DNA from: a virus
Virus record (IMG/VR): IMGVR_UViG_3300042691_050911
Location: 1-22,842 of that record
Reading direction: 5' to 3' (one strand)
Length of the DNA stretch: 22,842 bases
Part shown: piece after piece, positions 1 through 18,325 of the stretch
How the letters are laid out: every line of letters starts with the position of its first letter
How positions within the stretch are numbered: position 1 is the stretch's first letter
Program-made: the position numbers and the translations under genes
Notes under the pieces: model-generated
The model's input: only the letters and a program-made list of their open reading frames with translations
The model's database searches: none
Told to the model about the DNA's origin: nothing

Positions 1-1824
1 CGTGTTTTCGAAACCAATTACAGCCGCTCTCAAACCACCTGTGATTTTCAAATTAGCGTTGTACTGATATTCATCCTGAACATAAAGGTCAAGACGAGAT
101 GTTTTCAAAACTTGCATTGGTTCGATTCCACCAGGTAATGCTGAATAACGAAATTGGAATCTTGCAGGAGCAAGAGTTGAAGGTCTTCCACCGTTAGCTA
201 ATGATTGATTAGCTGCTGTGTAAAAATCTGCAAGTGAATTGAAGATGTATACACCGTTTGATGCGGGGAAGAACAAATTGTTAGAACGATATTTTTCAAA
301 GTTCACACCAGCAACCACAGTATGCTTGTCCATGAATTTGGTCAAATTGTTTGTGATGTGGAATGTGTTGTAATCCAATTTGTTACCAGGAGTGAATGGG
401 TCAAAACCTACAGAAGTGTAAGTTGCGGTACCATTCATGATATCAATAGTTGGAAACATCTGTGAAAGATATCCTCTATTTTCAATCTGCTTGTCATAAC
501 CAACAATCAAGTTGTTGTGTAAGGTATTGGAGAACTTACTGTTTAGTTCCAATACTGATGAACGTGTATTATCTTGAATGATGTATCCACTGTTCTTGAA
601 ACTCATAGCATTGAACTGAGTAGTTCTGTTTCCTGCACCTGCAGATTGAGAGTTTGAAATGTTAATCTCAGCTTCAGAATTGTGCCAAACATAACGAGCA
701 GTTAATTTGTGTTTGTCGTTAATGTTCCAGTCCATTCTTACCAAGAATTTTTCAGAAGTGTTAGAGTTGTTGTACCCTTCCCAAGGACCCGTCTCATAAT
801 TGAAGTTTGTTCTCATAAAATCGGAAAGAGTTTTCATATCCGAATATAAAACTCTTGAGATTTGAGAACCAGCTAATGGAGAACCCTGTGAAATCCAAGT
901 TGTTCCAGGTTCGGTTTTTGTAAGTGTTTCAAAGTTACCAAAAATGAATAATTTGTTTTTGATAATAGGAGCACCTAATCTGAAACCTCTTGTTGTTTCT
1001 TCGAATTTCGAAGCAGTTACAGTTGTTCCTTTAGCGTTGTTACCAACATAACGTTGGTTGTCTCTGTTAAACTGATAGTAAGAACCCTCTACTTTGTTGG
1101 AACCACTTCTAGTAACAGCGTTGATTCCAGCACCAACGAAACCACTCTGACGGATGTCAAATGGAGCTACGTTGATTTGTAGTTGGTCAATCGCATCCAA
1201 AGAGATTGCGGTTGAGCCAGTTCTACCACCAGCCTGAGCTGAAGAACCAAGACCGAAACCATTGTTGAACTGAGAACCGTCAATAGTGAAGTTGTTCAGC
1301 CTGCTATCAGCAGCTCCGAATGAACGACCGTCACCCATTGGGTTGTACTTTGTGATTCCGTCGATTGTTCTTGCACCAGTAATGGGAACAGAAGTGAGCT
1401 CTCTTCTACCAAATTGCTGAGACGCACCAGTTCTACCACTACTGAAGATGTTGTTTTTGTTAGAACTTACAACAACTTCTGAAAGTGTTTTAACTTCATC
1501 AATCAACACAATTTCCAAGGTAGTTGCAATACCTAAATTTGTATTGATGTCAGAAAGTTCCTTCATTTTGTAACCCACATTAGAAACGTGAATAACATAA
1601 GGACCACCAGGACGTACAGCAGGAATGGTAAAGGTACCAACTTTGTTTGTGATAGCACGATATTCAGAACCCGTAGGTTGGTGAACAGCATGTACCGACG
1701 CTCCCGCTAAAGCATCTCCTTTTTCATTTTTCACTACACCAGACAGGGCGGATGTTGTAATTTGCCCGAAAGATGCGAGAGTCACGAACAAGGATAAAAG
1801 TGACATCATGATTGCTTTTTTCAT
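1..1824 (-). CDS. Oar-like TonB-dependent outer-membrane receptor, 3' end outside window
   Basis: I translated 608 codons on the minus strand; the frame is open to the window edge, so the C-terminal part of the barrel is missing. The start MKKAIMMSLLSLFVTLASFG is a typical signal peptide, with likely cleavage before QITTSALSG. Residues about 23-105 form a carboxypeptidase-regulatory-like (CarboxypepD_reg) beta-sandwich (SGVVKNEKGDALAGASV). A plug domain follows (RELTSVPITGARTIDG, then NNFTIDGSQFNNGFGLG, AINAVTRSGSNK-type segment GINAVTRSGSNKVEGSYYQF), then barrel strands rich in aromatic and Asn residues. This is the Oar/SusC-neighbour class of Bacteroidota receptors, which import or bind ligands at the outer membrane using TonB energy. 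Hand-counted lines give about 42-45% G+C against 25-30% in sampled phage genes, and it uses AAC, GGT and TCT codons heavily. It could be host-derived cargo or an unusually highly expressed phage gene. Family call is confident; its role on a phage is not known. Confidence 0.93.
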   Translation of the reverse strand, partial: MKKAIMMSLLSLFVTLASFGQITTSALSGVVKNEKGDALAGASVHAVHQPTGSEYRAITNKVGTFTIPAVRPGGPYVIHVSNVGYKMKELSDINTNLGIATTLEIVLIDEVKTLSEVVVSSNKNNIFSSGRTGASQQFGRRELTSVPITGARTIDGITKYNPMGDGRSFGAADSRLNNFTIDGSQFNNGFGLGSSAQAGGRTGSTAISLDAIDQLQINVAPFDIRQSGFVGAGINAVTRSGSNKVEGSYYQFNRDNQRYVGNNAKGTTVTASKFEETTRGFRLGAPIIKNKLFIFGNFETLTKTEPGTTWISQGSPLAGSQISRVLYSDMKTLSDFMRTNFNYETGPWEGYNNSNTSEKFLVRMDWNINDKHKLTARYVWHNSEAEINISNSQSAGAGNRTTQFNAMSFKNSGYIIQDNTRSSVLELNSKFSNTLHNNLIVGYDKQIENRGYLSQMFPTIDIMNGTATYTSVGFDPFTPGNKLDYNTFHITNNLTKFMDKHTVVAGVNFEKYRSNNLFFPASNGVYIFNSLADFYTAANQSLANGGRPSTLAPARFQFRYSALPGGIEPMQVLKTSRLDLYVQDEYQYNANLKITGGLRAAVIGFENT

Positions 1825-2409: not shown

Positions 2410-2808
2410 TGGTGGAGAAGACGGGAGTCGAACCCGTGTCTTGTTCGCGATAACTATAAGTGACTACACGTTTATTCAATTGGTTCTCAATTGACAAATA
2501 GGTAGTTTATATCAGGAAAACTATCAAAACTGTTCCTAACCGGATTTTCATGAGCCGTCAGGTTTGCTCCAACACTCTGAGGTGGTGTTACACCGTAGGG
2601 ACTTCTGTTCCTAGGTTTTATGTCCGTCGACCCGAGTGTCATCACTTATATTAAGCAACAACAGGAGCTTCTTCAGCAATCAAGCCAAGAGAAGCCATTT
2701 TAGCAAAAGTATTGCCAGTTGTGTTTCAAATCAGTTTTTAAAGGAGTTAATTCAGCTCCTACGTGCCACCTATACCTATACACGCCAATCAATAGCCATT
2801 TCTTCCCC
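2410..2808 (-). ncRNA. ssrA: tmRNA (transfer-messenger RNA), phage-encoded, atypical tag
   Basis: The RNA rescues stalled ribosomes by acting first as tRNA-Ala and then as mRNA. The 5' end GGGGAAG pairs fully with CTTCTCC near the 3' end and contains a G3-U70 wobble, the identity signal for alanyl-tRNA synthetase. The T arm is ACGGG-TTCGACT-CCCGT, followed by discriminator A and an encoded CCA. Length is 399 nt, in the usual range. AGGAG/CTCCT upstream of the tag frame is consistent with pseudoknot PK1. The tag frame follows ACAACT, as in Bacteroides tmRNA, and starts with GGC. It encodes 21 residues, beginning GNTFAKM and ending EEAPVVA, then TAA (positions 2716 down to 2651). Host tags of this group are about 9 residues and end in ALAA. 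Typical D-arm detail is only loosely recognisable. Promoter lies at 2828-2858. Confidence 0.95.
2651..2716 (-). other. tmRNA tag-peptide reading frame (21 codons plus stop)
   Basis: The frame starts with GGC directly after ACAACT and ends with TAA. It encodes GNTFAKM, then ASLGLIA, then EEAPVVA. The reading frame is fixed by the stop; the resume codon is inferred from the match to the Bacteroides context CTGGC. The final residues are VVA where nearly all known tags have (A)LAA or a close relative. Confidence 0.8.
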
Positions 2809-2827
2809 ATATTTTCAAAGAACAGTA

Positions 2828-2858
2828 CAAATATAAGAATAAATATGATAACAACAAA
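2828..2858 (-). promoter_or_regulatory. Bacteroidota-type sigma promoter for tmRNA
   Basis: The minus strand has TTTG (2858-2855), a 19-nt spacer and TATATTTG (2835-2828), an exact fit to the Bacteroidota consensus TTTG-N19/20-TAnnTTTG. The mature tmRNA starts 19 nt further down, leaving a short leader for 5' processing. A TATTTATT copy (2845-2838) lies within the spacer, so two regulatory signals may overlap. Confidence 0.7.
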
Positions 2859-2862
2859 CTGG

Positions 2863-4739: not shown

Positions 4740-5576
4740 ATGAATCAAAACATAGAGTTTCTCAAAGAAGTGCTAAGCATTCCAACCAAAACTTACAATG
4801 AAGAATTGATGATTGAGTTTTTGGTTGAATGGCTTGAAAAAAAAGGTATTGAATATCATCTGGATGATATGGGAAATGTCTACGCAACAAAGAAAAGTGG
4901 AGAGGTTCCTGCTGATTTTTATTACCCTTGTGTCTTATCTCACACAGACACCGTTCACTCGATTAATGAAATCATCGTTAGAGAAGAACAAAAACCAAAT
5001 GCTCAAGGTTTTCGTAAATTAGCCCTTAAAGGGTATACAACCTCTGGTAAACCAACAGGTATTGGAGGAGACGATAAATGCGGTGTGTTTGCATGTCTTA
5101 CACTTTTAGACGAATTACCATTTCTTAAGGCCGCTTTTTTTGTTTCCGAAGAAACAGGTTGTCACGGTTCTCGTAATGCCGACCCCAAATTTTTTTCTAA
5201 CGTAGGATATGCAATTCAGTTTGATGCTCCCGAAAATTGGATGATTACTGAAAAATGTTTTGGTCAAATTCTTTTCGATAGAGATACTGAATTTTTCGAA
5301 AAGTGTGATAAAGTCCTAACCGAAGGTATGGTTAAAGAAGACATGGAATACATGGTTCACCCATACACTGATGTTTATGCTTTGAGAAGTAAATTTGATT
5401 TTTCTTGTATTAATTTTTCAATTGGATACTACGATTATCATACTGCAAATGAATATGTAGTTGTTGAAGATGTTTTCAAAGGAATTGAACACGGTAGGAA
5501 AATGATTTCTGAACTAGGATATAAGTTATATTACAAGAAATCTAATGAATATAGGTGGCAATACGAGAGTTTCTAA
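4740..5576 (+). CDS. Compact M20/M42-like zinc metallopeptidase
   Basis: 278 residues with all ligands expected for a two-zinc peptidase of clan MH: His68 and Asp70 in SHTDTVHS, Asp111/Asp112 in GIGGDDKCG, Glu137-Glu138 in SEETG (general base plus ligand), Asp162 in QFDAPE and His234 in YYDYHTANE. Relatives such as PepT cleave N-terminal residues from short peptides. PepT-type enzymes have about 400 residues because a dimerisation or lid domain is inserted before the last His; here only about 70 residues separate Asp162 and His234, so that domain is missing or greatly reduced. The protein has no signal peptide and should act in the cytoplasm. Its gene overlaps the stop codon of the convergent zinc-ribbon gene. 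Peptide recycling during infection is an inference; amidohydrolase or deacetylase activity is possible. Confidence 0.85.
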   Translation: MNQNIEFLKEVLSIPTKTYNEELMIEFLVEWLEKKGIEYHLDDMGNVYATKKSGEVPADFYYPCVLSHTDTVHSINEIIVREEQKPNAQGFRKLALKGYTTSGKPTGIGGDDKCGVFACLTLLDELPFLKAAFFVSEETGCHGSRNADPKFFSNVGYAIQFDAPENWMITEKCFGQILFDRDTEFFEKCDKVLTEGMVKEDMEYMVHPYTDVYALRSKFDFSCINFSIGYYDYHTANEYVVVEDVFKGIEHGRKMISELGYKLYYKKSNEYRWQYESF

Positions 5577-5740: not shown

Positions 5741-5764
5741 AAAAAGGGACTAGCGTCCCTTTTT
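5741..5764 (-). terminator. Terminator after clpC, containing its stop codon
   Basis: GGGAC (5746-5750) pairs with GTCCC (5755-5759) around a TAGC loop, with A and T runs on both sides. On the minus strand the hairpin is followed by TTTTTTTTATA. The clpC stop codon (5752-5750) is partly in the loop. It could also work on the + strand, where the T run is shorter. Confidence 0.8.
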
Positions 5765-7765
5765 CTGTATTTTGATTTCTTCTTTATCAACTTTGATGTG
5801 GTACTTTTTATTTTCCAAAATTTTACCAGTCAAAACTTCCTCGGAAAGAAGGTCTTCAACTTTGTCTTGGATTGCTCTTTTGAGAGGTCTTGCACCATAG
5901 AGGTCATCAAATCCAATTTTAGCTAAATGTTCTACTAAAGTTTCATCATAAGAAATAAGATAATTTTGTTCCTCAAGTCTTGTAACTAATTTTTTGAGTT
6001 CAATATCTGTGATTCTTTTGATGTCCTCTTGAGACAAAGAATTGAAAACTACTGTGTCATCAATTCGGTTAATGAATTCAGGAGAGAAAAAGTTTTTCAT
6101 CTCTTTCATTAACATCTGTTTTTTTGCTTCCTCGTTTGAATATGAATTTGAACTAAATCCAATTCCTGTTCCGAAATCTTGTAGTTTTTTAACACCCAAA
6201 TTAGAAGTAAGAATAATCAAAGTATTTTTGAAATTGATTTTTCTACCTAAACTGTCGGTAACGTGTCCGTCATCTAAAATCTGAAGAAGAACCGTGAATA
6301 CATCTTTGTGTGCCTTTTCTACCTCGTCGAACAAAATCACTGAATAAGGTTTGTTTTTAACTTTTTCTGTGAGTTGTCCACCTTCATCATAACCAACGTA
6401 ACCTGGAGGTGCACCTACTAATTTGGAAACGGTATGTTTTTCCTGATATTCACTCATATCAACTCTAATCAAAGAGTCTTCAGTACCAAACATTTCTTTC
6501 GCTAATTGTTTAGCCAAGTGAGTTTTACCAACCCCTGTGGAACCTAAAAACACAAATGAACCAATAGGACGATTGGGGTCTTTGATACCGAGTCTGTTAC
6601 GTTTGATTGATTTTACAATTTTTTTAACAGCCTCATCTTGACCAATTACTTTATCCATAAGAATCTTATCAAGATTCAATAGAGCTTTAGTATCGTCAAC
6701 ACTCATTTTGGTTACAGGGATTTTTGTCATATTGGAAACAACATCATACACATCGTTCAAGACAATTTGTTGTTTGTCTTTCTCTAATTGCTCTTCAAAT
6801 TTTCTTTTCTCCGCATCAAGTTTGTCGATTAACTTTTTCTCGGTGTCACGAAGTTGAGCTGCTTTCTCGTAGTTCTGTTTTTTTACAACATCCATTTTTG
6901 CATTTCGAATTTCTGCTGCTTTTTTCTTGAGTTCTTCGATTACTTCAGGTACTTTGAGTTCTGTTTGCATTCTTGCACCTACCTCATCCAATATGTCGAA
7001 TGCTTTATCAGGAAATTCTCTGTCTGTTATATAACGGTCTGCAAGTTTTACACAAGTTTCAATAACTTCATCGGAGTAATAAACTTTATGAAAAGATTCA
7101 TATTTGTCACGGACATTTTTCAAAATCTGAATTGTCTCGGCAACCGTGGACGGTTCCACCATAACTTTTTGAAATCTACGTTCCAAAGCTCCATCTTTTT
7201 CTATGTTTTTACGAAACTCATCTAAAGTTGTTGCACCGATACATTGAAGTTCGCCACGAGAAAGAGCGGGTTTAAAAATATTGGAACCATCCATAGAACC
7301 AGCTGAGTTACCTGAACCAACCAAAGTATGAATTTCGTCGATGAAAACGATAATGTTCGGGTTTGCTTGAAGCTCTTCGATGATAACTTTCATTCTTTCT
7401 TCGAATTGCCCTCTGTACTTTGTACCAGCAACAACCGATGTCAAATCGAGATTAACGATTCTTTTATCGACAAGATTACGAGGACAATCTCCATTTACAA
7501 TCTTAATTGCAAGTCCCTCAACGATTGCGGTTTTACCACAACCAGGTTCACCAATAATGATTGGATTATTTTTCTTTCTACGAGATAGGATTTGAGCGAT
7601 TCTCAAAATTTCACGGTCCCTTCCAATAACGGGGTCAAGTTTACCTTGTTCTGCTAACTTATTCAAATCTCTACTGAAGTTATCCAGAACGGGAGTAGTT
7701 GTATCAGAATTTTGTTTCTGTTTCTTACTCATTGTCTTGTCATCATCGTCTAATAAATCATTCAT
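5750..7765 (-). CDS. clpC: ClpC-type AAA+ unfoldase lacking the N-domain
   Basis: 671 residues with two AAA+ modules. D1: Walker A GEPGCGKT (72-79), Walker B IIVFIDE (138-144), arginine finger in ALERRF. Middle domain about 270-345 with a UVR-like YEKAAQLRD, which is the ClpC rather than ClpB type. D2: Walker A GSTGVGKT (408-415), Walker B SVILFDE (475-481), pore loop GYVGYDEGG (455-463) and an IGF tripeptide at about 535-537 in the position of the ClpP-docking loop, followed by [10 protein letters not shown]. Cellular ClpC is about 810-850 residues because a double-repeat Clp_N domain comes first; here D1 begins after only about 25 residues with an acidic stretch (LLDDDDK). It should unfold proteins and may feed them to host ClpP. 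It is divergent from hsp20. Family certain; ClpP docking inferred. Confidence 0.96.
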
Positions 7766-7964: not shown

Positions 7965-8363
7965 ATGATTTATTTGAACAACGACTTCAATGAAATGTTT
8001 GACAAAATTTTTGGACAAACACAAACATCTCCCCATTGGAAAACTACATTAGTAACCAAATCAGAAGACTCTGAAAGTTATGAAATAAACCACACGAATG
8101 ACGGAGCTTATCTATTTTTTGAAGCACCAGGTTTCAACAAATCGAATCTCAAAGTCGAAATGGAAAACGGGGTTCTTTATATTAACGGTAAGAGAACTTT
8201 TAAGTTAAATGGAGAAGAAAAAGTAAGAACAATAAAAAAAGAATTTAGAGTTGGAGATGATTACAACGCTTCATCGATTGAAGCAACTATAGAAGATGGT
8301 TTACTTACGGTATTCGTACCTAATTACAAGAAACAAGAAAAGAAAAGAATCAGTCTCCTCTAA
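7965..8363 (+). CDS. Small heat-shock protein (Hsp20/alpha-crystallin)
   Basis: 132 residues. An alpha-crystallin domain spans about residues 36-125: AYLFFEAPGFNKSNLKVEM, NGVLYINGKR, the conserved EDGLLTVFVPNYKK block (A-x-x-x-n-G-v-L class), and a C-terminal RISLL, which resembles the I-x-I/V motif used for oligomer contacts. The N-terminal arm (DFNEMFDKIFGQ) is short. Hsp20 proteins hold unfolding clients without ATP. Small Hsp genes are known in T4-like phages, notably cyanophages, where a role in head assembly or stress protection is suspected. The gene is divergent from clpC across a region with repeated TGTCA boxes and is closed by a strong terminator. Its leader AAAACTAAAA is also found before two structural genes. 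Confidence 0.95.
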   Translation: MIYLNNDFNEMFDKIFGQTQTSPHWKTTLVTKSEDSESYEINHTNDGAYLFFEAPGFNKSNLKVEMENGVLYINGKRTFKLNGEEKVRTIKKEFRVGDDYNASSIEATIEDGLLTVFVPNYKKQEKKRISLL

Positions 8364-8376
8364 ATAGACATCCGTT

Positions 8377-8405
8377 AATCCCTCACTCTTTGGTGGGGGA
8401 TTTTT
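8377..8405 (+). terminator. Strong intrinsic terminator after hsp20
   Basis: A 10-bp stem (8377-8386 with 8393-8402, one G-T pair) encloses a 6-nt loop and is followed by TTTTT overlapping its 3' arm. The stop codon of the convergent dioxygenase gene lies within the stem. Confidence 0.85.
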
Positions 8406-8925
8406 CTTTCCAATCCACTATCATATGTATTCTGTCAATATCTCCGTTATTCTCAACCCAATGAATGTATTCATCGTTAGCGATTTCCCAAATTTCTCCT
8501 ACTTTTAAATTTTTACTTTCTTTATTTATGTAGAAATAACAATCATCATTTGTTTGTATCGGAATGTGTAATCTTCTAAATAACTTGGCAAATTTGAACG
8601 TGTCAATATGTTTTGCAATTTTTTTCTTTGATGGTAAATTTACCATTATACAAGATTGAATATCACCCTCACCCAAAAGTTCCGAAATTTGTGTGGTCAA
8701 GTTTTTTATGGGTTTTTCAAAATGTTCAAAGTTTTCTGTCAATTTGATTTCATCGATTGAAAATTTCTCATCAAAAATAACTGGTATAGTTTTAGTTTCT
8801 TGGAAACAGGCAAATTTTTCTTGTCTGAAAGTATATCCATCCCAACTCAAACCGCTTGAGTTTAAACATTCAAAAAACTCTGTCGTATTTAACTTACCAA
8901 TAAATTTAAAAGGGGGTCTAATCAT
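8383..8925 (-). CDS. Aspartyl/asparaginyl beta-hydroxylase-like Fe(II)/2-oxoglutarate dioxygenase
   Basis: 180 residues. The C-terminal half has the family's order of motifs: His106-x-Asp108 (KHIDTF) as metal ligands, RRLHIPIQT (117-125) as the R-x-H-x-P block, GEIWEI (143-148), and His155...Arg165 in HWVENNGDIDRIHMIVDW as the distal metal ligand and 2-oxoglutarate anchor. AspH-like enzymes hydroxylate Asp or Asn side chains of proteins, and free-living relatives act on small substrates or lipids. The N-terminal 90 residues have no motif I can name. Gene length is close to that of minimal bacterial AspH-like proteins. It is convergent with hsp20, sharing terminator sequence, and divergent from the KTSC gene over 42 bp. 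The substrate is unknown; a virion protein or a ribosomal protein would be reasonable guesses only. Confidence 0.8.
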   Translation of the reverse strand: MIRPPFKFIGKLNTTEFFECLNSSGLSWDGYTFRQEKFACFQETKTIPVIFDEKFSIDEIKLTENFEHFEKPIKNLTTQISELLGEGDIQSCIMVNLPSKKKIAKHIDTFKFAKLFRRLHIPIQTNDDCYFYINKESKNLKVGEIWEIANDEYIHWVENNGDIDRIHMIVDWKEKSPTKE

Positions 8926-10003: not shown

Positions 10004-10816
10004 ATGGCGTTTTCATATTATATTGCGAGTCCCTGTAGTGGAGGAAGTGACATTTTCATAAAATCAGAAGAATTCCTCATTTCTGGTAAAATTTACGAAC
10101 TTACAATCTCTTCAAGTGTCGCTTGTTGGACTGTAGTTTCTGGTCCCACAACTCCATTAGCTCAGACCGCAACTATATTTACAGGACCTTGGAACTCTTG
10201 TGTTGAATGTTTACAGGATATTACGCCCACTCCTACCGCTTCTATTACACCTACACCAACCCAAACCGCAACTCAAACTTCCACGCCTACAAATACACCT
10301 ACTCCAAGTATCACTGCAAGTAATACACCGACACCAAGTATCACTGCAACAAATACTGGTACTCCTACTCAAACACCAACAAATACAGGCACTCCTACTC
10401 AAACACCAACAAATACCCAAACTCAAACACCAACAAACACGGCAACACAAACTGGCACACCTACAAATACACCTACACAAACTGGTACCCCAACACCAAG
10501 CATTACAGCTAGTAACACACCAACACCAAGCATTACTGCGACAAATACAGGAACCCCAACTCAAACACCTTCGAACACACCAACTCAAACACCAACAATC
10601 ACACCAAGCCCAACACCTACACACACACCATGGCCTTTAACAGGATATAGTGTTGATAATCAATACGCATATACAAGTGAATGTTGTTATCCGCCAACAG
10701 GTGATACAACTTCCAACACCGCTTATCCACATCCTATTGATACTGACGCAGTAGGTGTTCCTTTCGTTCAGTTAAACGCAGTTAGAATAGGTGGATTTAA
10801 CGGATTAAATAATTAA
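10004..10816 (+). CDS. Thr/Pro-repeat protein, probable virion surface or fibre component
   Basis: 270 residues in three parts. Residues 1-72 form a compact domain with four Cys ([24 protein letters not shown]). Residues about 73-208 are almost only Thr, Pro, Gln, Asn, Ser and Ala, built from TPT, TQTP, TNT and TGTP units; a 27-residue block starting PTPSITASN occurs twice, 64 codons apart, with different synonymous codons. Residues 209-270 form a second non-repetitive domain with a Cys pair (SECCYPP). There is no signal peptide. The layout resembles a stiff or disordered linker between two small domains, as found in phage tail or head-decoration proteins. It has its own TATTTATA motif and starts the late gene run. 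Function is inferred from position and composition only. Confidence 0.8.
10229..10629 (+). repeat. Degenerate short-period repeat coding for Thr/Pro linker
   Basis: Units of ACACCAACA, CAAACACCAACAAATAC and similar fill this stretch. Two long blocks start at 10298 and 10490 (192 bp apart). The copies differ mostly at third codon positions, so the peptide is better conserved than the DNA. Confidence 0.8.
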
Positions 10817-16465: not shown

Positions 16466-18325
16466 ATGGCTGAAAATAACTTAACGGTTTGGCAAAGGTT
16501 GTCCCAAACTTTTGGACCCAATTCATTATTAGGACAAGATGTTCCAACATTCAAATTCGATAAAAAAGAATTGTTGAGAACTAAAAGTAGGGACGAATAT
16601 GAGCGTGAAAAATTACAGGCTCAACAAACTTTCTATTTAACAAACCAATGGGCTAAAGTAGAAAATAATCTATACTCACAGGCCATCTATTACGAACCTT
16701 CGAGATTATCGTCACAATATGATTATGAATCGATGGAGTATACTCCTGAAATTTCCGCAGCTTTGGATATATACGCTGAAGAATCTACCACAACAAATGA
16801 AGATGGATTTATACTACAAATTTACTCGGAATCAAAAAGAATCAAAGCGGTTCTAGCGGACCTTTTTAACAATACTTTGGACATTAACACCAATTTACCT
16901 ATGTGGACAAGAAATACGTGTAAATTTGGTGATAATTTCGTTTATCTCAAACTTGACCCTGAAAAAGGGATTGTTGGATGTCAACAACTCCCAACAATTG
17001 AAATTGAAAGACACGAAGTTGGTGCTTCAAATAAAATTTTGGCACCTTCACAGGAAAAACCTGAAAAACCAAAAGCACTACAATTCACATGGAAAAACAA
17101 AAACATGGAGTTTCAGTCATGGGAAATTGCTCACTTTAGACTTTTGGGCGATGATAGGAAACTTCCTTATGGAACTTCAATGTTGGAAAAAGCTAGAAGA
17201 ATTTGGAAACAATTATTGTTGTCAGAAGACGCTATGTTGATATATAGAACATCAAGAGCACCTGAAAGAAGAATGTTCAAAGTGTTTGTTGGAAACATGA
17301 ATGATGATGATGTTGAAGCATATGTACAGAGAGTTGCCAATAAATTTAAAAGAGAACAAATTGTTGATAGTAGAACAGGTAACGTGGACATGAGATTTAA
17401 CCAAATGGCTGTTGACCAAGACTACTTCATACCTGTTCGTGACCCAGCAGCTCCTGACCCAATCACTACTTTACCAGGAGCAACAAACTTATCAGAGATA
17501 GCTGATATTGAGTACATACAAAAGAAATTATTAACCGCTCTTCGTGTACCCAAAGCGTTTTTGGGATTTGAAGAAGTTGTTGGTGATGGTAAAAATTTAT
17601 CATTACAAGATATAAGATTTGCTCGTACCATCAACAGAATTCAAAAAAGTATGTTGGCAGAACTTAATAAAATTGCCATTATACACTTATTCCTTTTAGG
17701 TTTTGAAGATGAATTGGGTAATTTCACTTTGGGACTCACAAACCCATCTACACAAGCTGACTTACTCAAAATCGACGTTTGGAAAGAAAAAATTTTATTA
17801 TACAAAGATTTAGTAGCTGACCCTGGTAATGGAATACAAGCCACATCATCCACTTGGGCGAAGAAACATATATTTGGATGGTCTGATGAAGAAATTAGAT
17901 TGGATTTACAACAACAAAGAATTGAAAGAGCTGTAGGTGAAGAACTTAAAGCAACTCCGACGGTTATTAGTAAAACGGGAGTATTTGATAATATCGACAA
18001 ACTTTATGGTAGTCAGACGGGAGGCACTGCTACAGCAACCACTGGTGAAGAACCATCACCAGACATGGGAGGAGCTCCAATTGGAGGGGAAGCCCCTCTA
18101 ACTCCACCGGCTGGAGGGCCTGAACTCGGAGGAGAGGAAACACCGCCACCACCTGAACCCGAACCAGCAGCAGGAGGAGTAGTAACTCCTGAATCTGTAA
18201 AAAAAGATATGAATATTCTTTTGGAGGGAAATTTTATTCGAGGTTCGGCAATTATAGATTTAGGCCAAGCACAAGATTCTTTGGGTAAAATTTCTGAAGA
18301 ATTAGATAAGTTACTAGATTCATAA
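16466..18325 (+). CDS. Portal protein (T4 gp20-like)
   Basis: 619 residues; the dodecameric ring at the head vertex through which DNA passes and on which the head assembles. Evidence: gene order (terminase, portal, protease, scaffold, capsid), size near T4 gp20 (about 520) plus a tail, and portal-like segments such as YTPEISAALDIYAEESTT (93-110), MWTRNTCKFGDNFVYLK, HFRLLGDDRKLPYGTSMLEKARR-type block (the PYGxSxLxxARxxW pattern), RAPERRMFKVFVGN and VPKAFLGFEEVVGDG. Extra compared with T4 is a Gly/Pro/Glu-rich linker at about 515-575 and a final helix of 40 residues ending LDKLLDS. The tail could contact the scaffold or the terminase. Start ATG is the first in frame and follows an A-rich leader. 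Confidence 0.93.
   Translation: MAENNLTVWQRLSQTFGPNSLLGQDVPTFKFDKKELLRTKSRDEYEREKLQAQQTFYLTNQWAKVENNLYSQAIYYEPSRLSSQYDYESMEYTPEISAALDIYAEESTTTNEDGFILQIYSESKRIKAVLADLFNNTLDINTNLPMWTRNTCKFGDNFVYLKLDPEKGIVGCQQLPTIEIERHEVGASNKILAPSQEKPEKPKALQFTWKNKNMEFQSWEIAHFRLLGDDRKLPYGTSMLEKARRIWKQLLLSEDAMLIYRTSRAPERRMFKVFVGNMNDDDVEAYVQRVANKFKREQIVDSRTGNVDMRFNQMAVDQDYFIPVRDPAAPDPITTLPGATNLSEIADIEYIQKKLLTALRVPKAFLGFEEVVGDGKNLSLQDIRFARTINRIQKSMLAELNKIAIIHLFLLGFEDELGNFTLGLTNPSTQADLLKIDVWKEKILLYKDLVADPGNGIQATSSTWAKKHIFGWSDEEIRLDLQQQRIERAVGEELKATPTVISKTGVFDNIDKLYGSQTGGTATATTGEEPSPDMGGAPIGGEAPLTPPAGGPELGGEETPPPPEPEPAAGGVVTPESVKKDMNILLEGNFIRGSAIIDLGQAQDSLGKISEELDKLLDS

Follow-up and report, generated by a model that had tools for sequence, protein, structure and literature searches.

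The window analysed here, a 22,842-base contig from an IMG/VR virus record, encodes a T4-type large terminase that marks it as phage (14668..16422, plus strand), a T4-type portal protein (16466..18325, plus strand; Pfam Portal_T4, 2e-74) and a prohead protease. A tmRNA (ssrA) gene of 399 nt with an encoded CCA end lies at 2410..2808 on the minus strand. It was found by ARAGORN and matched at full length by the Rfam model RF00023 with 75.5 bits (gathering score 47, E 5.8e-28). This match spans positions 1-374, with low posterior support in the middle of the alignment; pairing was analysed with a nested-structure tool, which models no pseudoknots such as PK1-PK4. The acceptor stem (GGGGAAG/CUUCUCC) is paired at 7/7 positions, G3-U70 included, and the TTCGA T-loop was found along with the CCA. 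Complete tmRNAs of related phages also pair at 7/7 positions (GGGCCCG/CGGGUCC in L126), and within the family 32 of the 45 predicted pairs, in acceptor stem, P2 and T arm, have changed in a compensatory way. The initial annotation had described an intact, apparently chargeable tmRNA carried by a phage. The ARAGORN and RF00023 hits, the acceptor stem and the CCA bear out the first part, and the T4-type terminase, the portal and the prohead protease on a virus contig bear out the second. Judged from its sequence, the gene almost certainly serves ribosome rescue, as the tmRNA of a T4-like phage that probably infects Bacteroidota. Elsewhere among the related loci, group I introns (RF00028; L145:12871-13087 and L159:15130-15346) interrupt the tmRNA at one and the same T-loop site (GGGTT^CGA), and these split genes were missed by ARAGORN.

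The neighbourhood of the tmRNA includes a ClpC-like double-AAA+ ATPase of 671 amino acids without N-domain (5750..7765, minus strand; Pfam AAA, AAA_2, ClpB_D2-small), a small heat-shock protein of the Hsp20 type beside clpC (7965..8363, plus strand; Pfam PF00011) and a peptidase between clpC and the tmRNA (4740..5576, plus strand; PHROG 4191). The order Hsp20, ClpC, peptidase, tmRNA is the same in the related locus L349. The contig also carries an Asp/Asn beta-hydroxylase-like protein (8383-8925, minus strand; PF05118), a 270-residue protein with long Thr/Pro-rich TPTxT repeats and no Pfam match (10004-10816, plus strand) and, at the contig end, a fragment of a large phage-encoded protein (1-1824, minus strand), whose homologue at L349:8061-11336 matches outer-membrane beta-barrel and carboxypeptidase-regulatory domains. 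When 50,697 phage records were searched by blastn for isolate relatives, neither the window region nor the tmRNA of one relative gave a match, and the tmRNA of another relative matched over short 3'-end stretches only. Among the nearest portal relatives, no RF00023 match was present in Flavobacterium phage immuto or Rhodothermus phage RM378.

Upstream of the tmRNA, on the same strand, we found a Bacteroidota-type -7 box TATATTTG (TAnnTTTG; 2828..2835) and a -33 region GTTTGTTG (2852..2859). The TAnnTTTG motif precedes 51 of 62 distinct tmRNAs of the family, against 5.5 expected from shuffled sequences, and 48 of these 51 also carry a TTG 15-25 nt ahead of the -7 box, the distance of the -33 region. 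Between the promoter and the mature 5' end of the tmRNA stands a boxA-like leader GTTCTTTGAAAA (2812..2823, minus strand), seen in 52/62 relatives against a shuffled expectation of 1.0; its function is putative, assigned by resemblance. Similar boxA-like motifs precede some host ssrA genes too. A further element, about 78 nt long and hardly varying, has the core GGGUGGCUCCCUUAAUAGUUAAGGCUGACCUUAAGCAUC...UAUACAGGGGGCGAAAGUG and was noticed at L130:15470-15560 and also in L006, L046, L073, L078, L128, L138, L140, L146 and L355-L426. Of its 76 IMG/VR loci, 45 have it immediately ahead of a family tmRNA and several ahead of tRNA genes, often right behind a TAnnTTTG promoter. Its closing stem covaries by eye (AAAUCAC/GUGAUUU, AAAUAC/GUAUUU, AAACAC/GUGUUU) and the copy in L130 had no significant Rfam match; it is possibly an antitermination or processing element.

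The tag reading frame encodes GNTFAKMASLGLIAEEAPVVA followed by a stop codon and occupies 2651..2716 on the minus strand (gene positions 93-158 in ARAGORN), with GGC as resume codon. The tag has 21 residues and ends in Pro-Val-Val-Ala. To place it among relatives, IMG/VR was scanned with a tmRNA 3'-end pattern and by a ClpC search, which yielded about 200 loci; these were aligned to the window tmRNA and the homologous frame was read, giving 75 loci and 58 distinct sequences. The frame and its stop codon are conserved throughout these 58 distinct relatives, and all tags have 21 or 22 residues except one truncated at a contig end. Their consensus is GN[TV][FL]xK[ML]xx[LIV]GLxxEExVVxA, with Gly11 and Leu12 invariant among the 21-residue tags. 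An A is present at position -4 from the resume codon in 61/61 full-length family genes, the same position as that of the critical A86 in E. coli. The invariant residues are written with varied codons (for Leu12 five kinds, comprising 27 TTA, 25 CTT and 5 others; for Gly11 three kinds), entropy is highest at third codon positions (1.28 vs 0.87 and 0.67 at the other two), and pN/pS has its lowest value, 0.63, in frame, compared with 0.80 and 1.05 when the frame is shifted, all of which indicates selection on the tag peptide. Used alone, ARAGORN set the resume codon wrongly for several relatives (AEEATVVA at 133), and these cases were corrected by the alignment. For the window tmRNA, Infernal with RF00023 aligned the resume codon where ARAGORN had put it, not elsewhere. 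Family alignment and codon-level conservation together rule out a wrong resume codon or a chance frame. The [LIV]GL of the tag also resembles the tripeptide with which Clp ATPases dock to ClpP, but this similarity is too short to count.

The phage host is probably a member of the Bacteroidota, as the initial annotation had assumed. The best 80 matches of the phage ClpC in genome assemblies belong to this group wherever the title names one, and this relationship, together with the Bacteroidota-type promoters, points to such a host. Across 30 Bacteroidota genomes the tmRNA tags have 9-11 residues (for example GENNYALAA, GETNYALAA and GEYNYAMAA), close ones being mostly GENNYALAA, and nearly all end in ALAA, AMAA or RLAA/NLAA; one of the host tmRNAs read (L321) had an apparently misplaced tag frame. 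The 21-residue phage tag is thus more than twice as long as host tags and has a non-ALAA end, as had been claimed, and a habit of VVA endings was not found among the host tmRNAs read. A search of 395 Bacteroidota genomes with the family-tag pattern, which recalls 27/61 of the phage family members, gave zero matches; this result and the host tags read rule out the host as the source of the long tag. In addition, that first reading had overlooked that the tag belongs to a conserved family, that some relatives encode SmpB and that Bacteroidota-type promoters lie upstream.

None of the 75 family loci has a tag ending in LAA or MAA, and ALAA is absent throughout; some tags end in VAA, which comes near to ordinary degrons and speaks against a re-specified tag, and the family keeps a small hydrophobic C-terminus, mostly Ala. 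For ClpXP of E. coli, no element matters more than the C-terminal Ala-Ala (PMC7652416); the window tag lacks this Ala-Ala (LAA type) of the ClpXP-type ssrA degron and has Val before the final Ala.

The best solved relative of the window ClpC-like protein is ClpC, and its motifs and length support its identification as a ClpC-like ATPase without N-domain. It contains two AAA+ modules with Walker and pore motifs and an IGF loop of the ClpP-docking [ILV]GF type. Among 77 phage sequences, the two pore loops are present in 77/77 and 76/77, and an IGF, VGF or LGF loop in 67, the remaining ten giving no IGF-type match. Pfam detected no Clp_N domain in the window protein, and in relatives the open frame extends upstream by at most 29 more residues; the median length is 671 residues for phage ClpC against 850 for bacterial ClpC. 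The phage proteins form a single clade apart from bacterial ClpC, amounting to one change on the tree.

At all 50 loci where both were seen, phage clpC and the tmRNA share a strand, and the tmRNA follows 2.0-5.7 kb downstream. At the 44 informative loci, which have at least 6.5 kb of downstream DNA, a tmRNA was found in every case, 35 by blastn and nine by Infernal with family tags. Phage ClpC is encoded on 19 of 23 long-tag contigs and on none of 19 contigs carrying a short-tag phage tmRNA, a difference whose Fisher probability of 2e-8 overstates independence, given that phage ClpC is one clade and the co-occurrence reflects shared descent. ClpC went undetected in four of the 23 long-tag contigs, one of them of 131 kb, and a more distant ClpC is present on two contigs with other long tags (those of L010 and L038).

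Of 24 records, 11 encode ClpP and 4 SmpB; among the ten records above 100 kb with phage ClpC, ClpP occurs in eight and SmpB in two. SmpB adjoins the tmRNA in three relatives (L202, L204 and L205), and in G001 some 20 kb separate the ClpP gene from the tmRNA, so that the two do not share an operon. The contigs are fragments, and the window itself, whose end is 2.4 kb beyond the tmRNA, contains neither SmpB nor ClpP. In alignment with solved ClpP, the phage ClpP matches across the Ser (GMAASMG) and His (MLHQ) motifs, and its active site is apparently intact.

Phage-borne tmRNAs are known already (PMC4131195), in Bacteroidota phages too, and tmRNA with SmpB has been described in huge phages (PMC7162821), as in some relatives here; the main text of that paper does not mention Clp, and we saw no description of this tag family. 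Known carriers include mycobacteriophages, Bacillus phage G, Streptomyces phages, crAss-like phages and Chryseobacterium phage MA9V-3. Streptomyces phage tags are of the ALAA type, unlike those of the present family, and the tags predicted for crAss-like phages and MA9V-3, with uncertain frames, have 13-17 residues and another sequence. With the Bacteroidota host tmRNA, whose tag is (A)GENNYALAA, the phage gene shares the RNA family, the Gly resume codon and the promoter type; it differs by a tag of 21-22 instead of 9-11 residues without NNY or ALAA, and the window tmRNA scores lower, at 75.5 bits, where most host genes reach about 120-170 bits. The phage ClpC has the two AAA+ modules, pore loops and ClpP-docking motif in common with the known ClpC/ClpP protease, and differs in its missing N-terminal adaptor domain and its own clade. 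Unrelated phage tmRNA families with tags of 24-31 residues, such as ADEEYRDLLAEAEQIFNNADAYVPEEALLAA and GKNTHIFNHYPMVEVSQNQYAIAA, were also encountered (L005, L065, L096 and L099; L012; L010 and L032; L058). In the open-licence literature on phage tmRNA and Clp, we found no description of a family of 21-22-residue tags tied to ClpC/ClpP.

The position of the tmRNA gene beside a virus-owned protein-unfolding machine suggests that the virus runs its own tag-and-destroy pathway in place of that of the host. We give a probability of roughly 0.58 to a phage-owned pathway of trans-translation and degradation, with a tag re-specified probably for the phage ClpC(P). According to this model, the tmRNA would be charged with alanine, would enter stalled ribosomes with SmpB, either that of the host or, in some relatives, the phage's own, and would append A-GNTFAKMASLGLIAEEAPVVA to the unfinished protein. 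This tag would be a re-specified degron, devoid of the host NNY...ALAA signature and meant for the N-domain-less phage ClpC, which would act with ClpP, phage-encoded as in many relatives and perhaps in the window phage, or with host ClpP. Rescue would be kept, and tagged proteins, presumably no longer recognised by ClpX, would leave the host ClpXP route for a protease under phage control. The proposed link to the protease is drawn from synteny and protein anatomy. The association of ClpC with the tmRNA at 44/44 loci and the presence of ClpP in most large relatives support indirectly the rerouting to another protease that the initial annotation had considered. In ClpA, loss of the N-domain leaves the handling of ssrA substrates through the pore intact, so direct reading of a C-terminal degron by the N-domain-less ClpC would be possible. 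The conserved inner part of the tag (Lys6, Met/Leu7 and Gly11-Leu12) hints at another contact in addition to that of the C-terminus. More tentatively, and with somewhat less than even odds, this clade of Bacteroidota phages may own a complete, self-contained pathway (tmRNA, SmpB in some, N-domain-less ClpC and ClpP) with a private two-part tag of 21-22 residues, read by phage ClpC and not by host ClpXP.

The phage tmRNA might instead simply boost rescue, with host ClpXP or further proteases of the host still receiving the tagged proteins, and with a tag that has drifted within their tolerance. The small hydrophobic, mostly Ala end of the tags would fit, as would the ordinary phage tmRNAs with host-like tags (for example GTTNYALAA and GENNYALAA) and the ALAA ends in Streptomyces phages. 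However, the peptide has not drifted: Gly11-Leu12 is invariant and the length stays at 21-22 residues across very divergent phages, in a family without any ALAA and with a fixed ClpC neighbourhood, which makes this explanation unlikely. It is less probable still that the tag stabilises or redirects proteins and is no degradation mark, for example as an anchor for ClpC acting as a disaggregase with Hsp20. The adjoining Hsp20 gene, the ability of ClpC to work as an unfoldase and a tag longer than a minimal degron speak for it, yet most phage ClpC keep the ClpP-docking motif and most large relatives encode a ClpP whose active site looks intact. Finally, integration at ssrA genes is known, and an ssrA copy in Maribacter phage Panino has been read as an integration relic (PMC11590407), but an attachment-site copy without phage function is very improbable here, disfavoured by a full-length gene with its own promoter beside T4-like structural genes, a non-host tag conserved over many lineages and no integrase recognised within the window.

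Tagging by ssrA and its protease are normally host housekeeping. If the phage-owned pathway is real, the combination of a tagger, a linked unfoldase and a conserved non-host tag would represent a virus rewiring protein quality control. Such a phage would illustrate the re-specification of a degron code, would supply Bacteroidota work with an orthogonal long degron, and would make directly testable the question of why phages keep tmRNAs.
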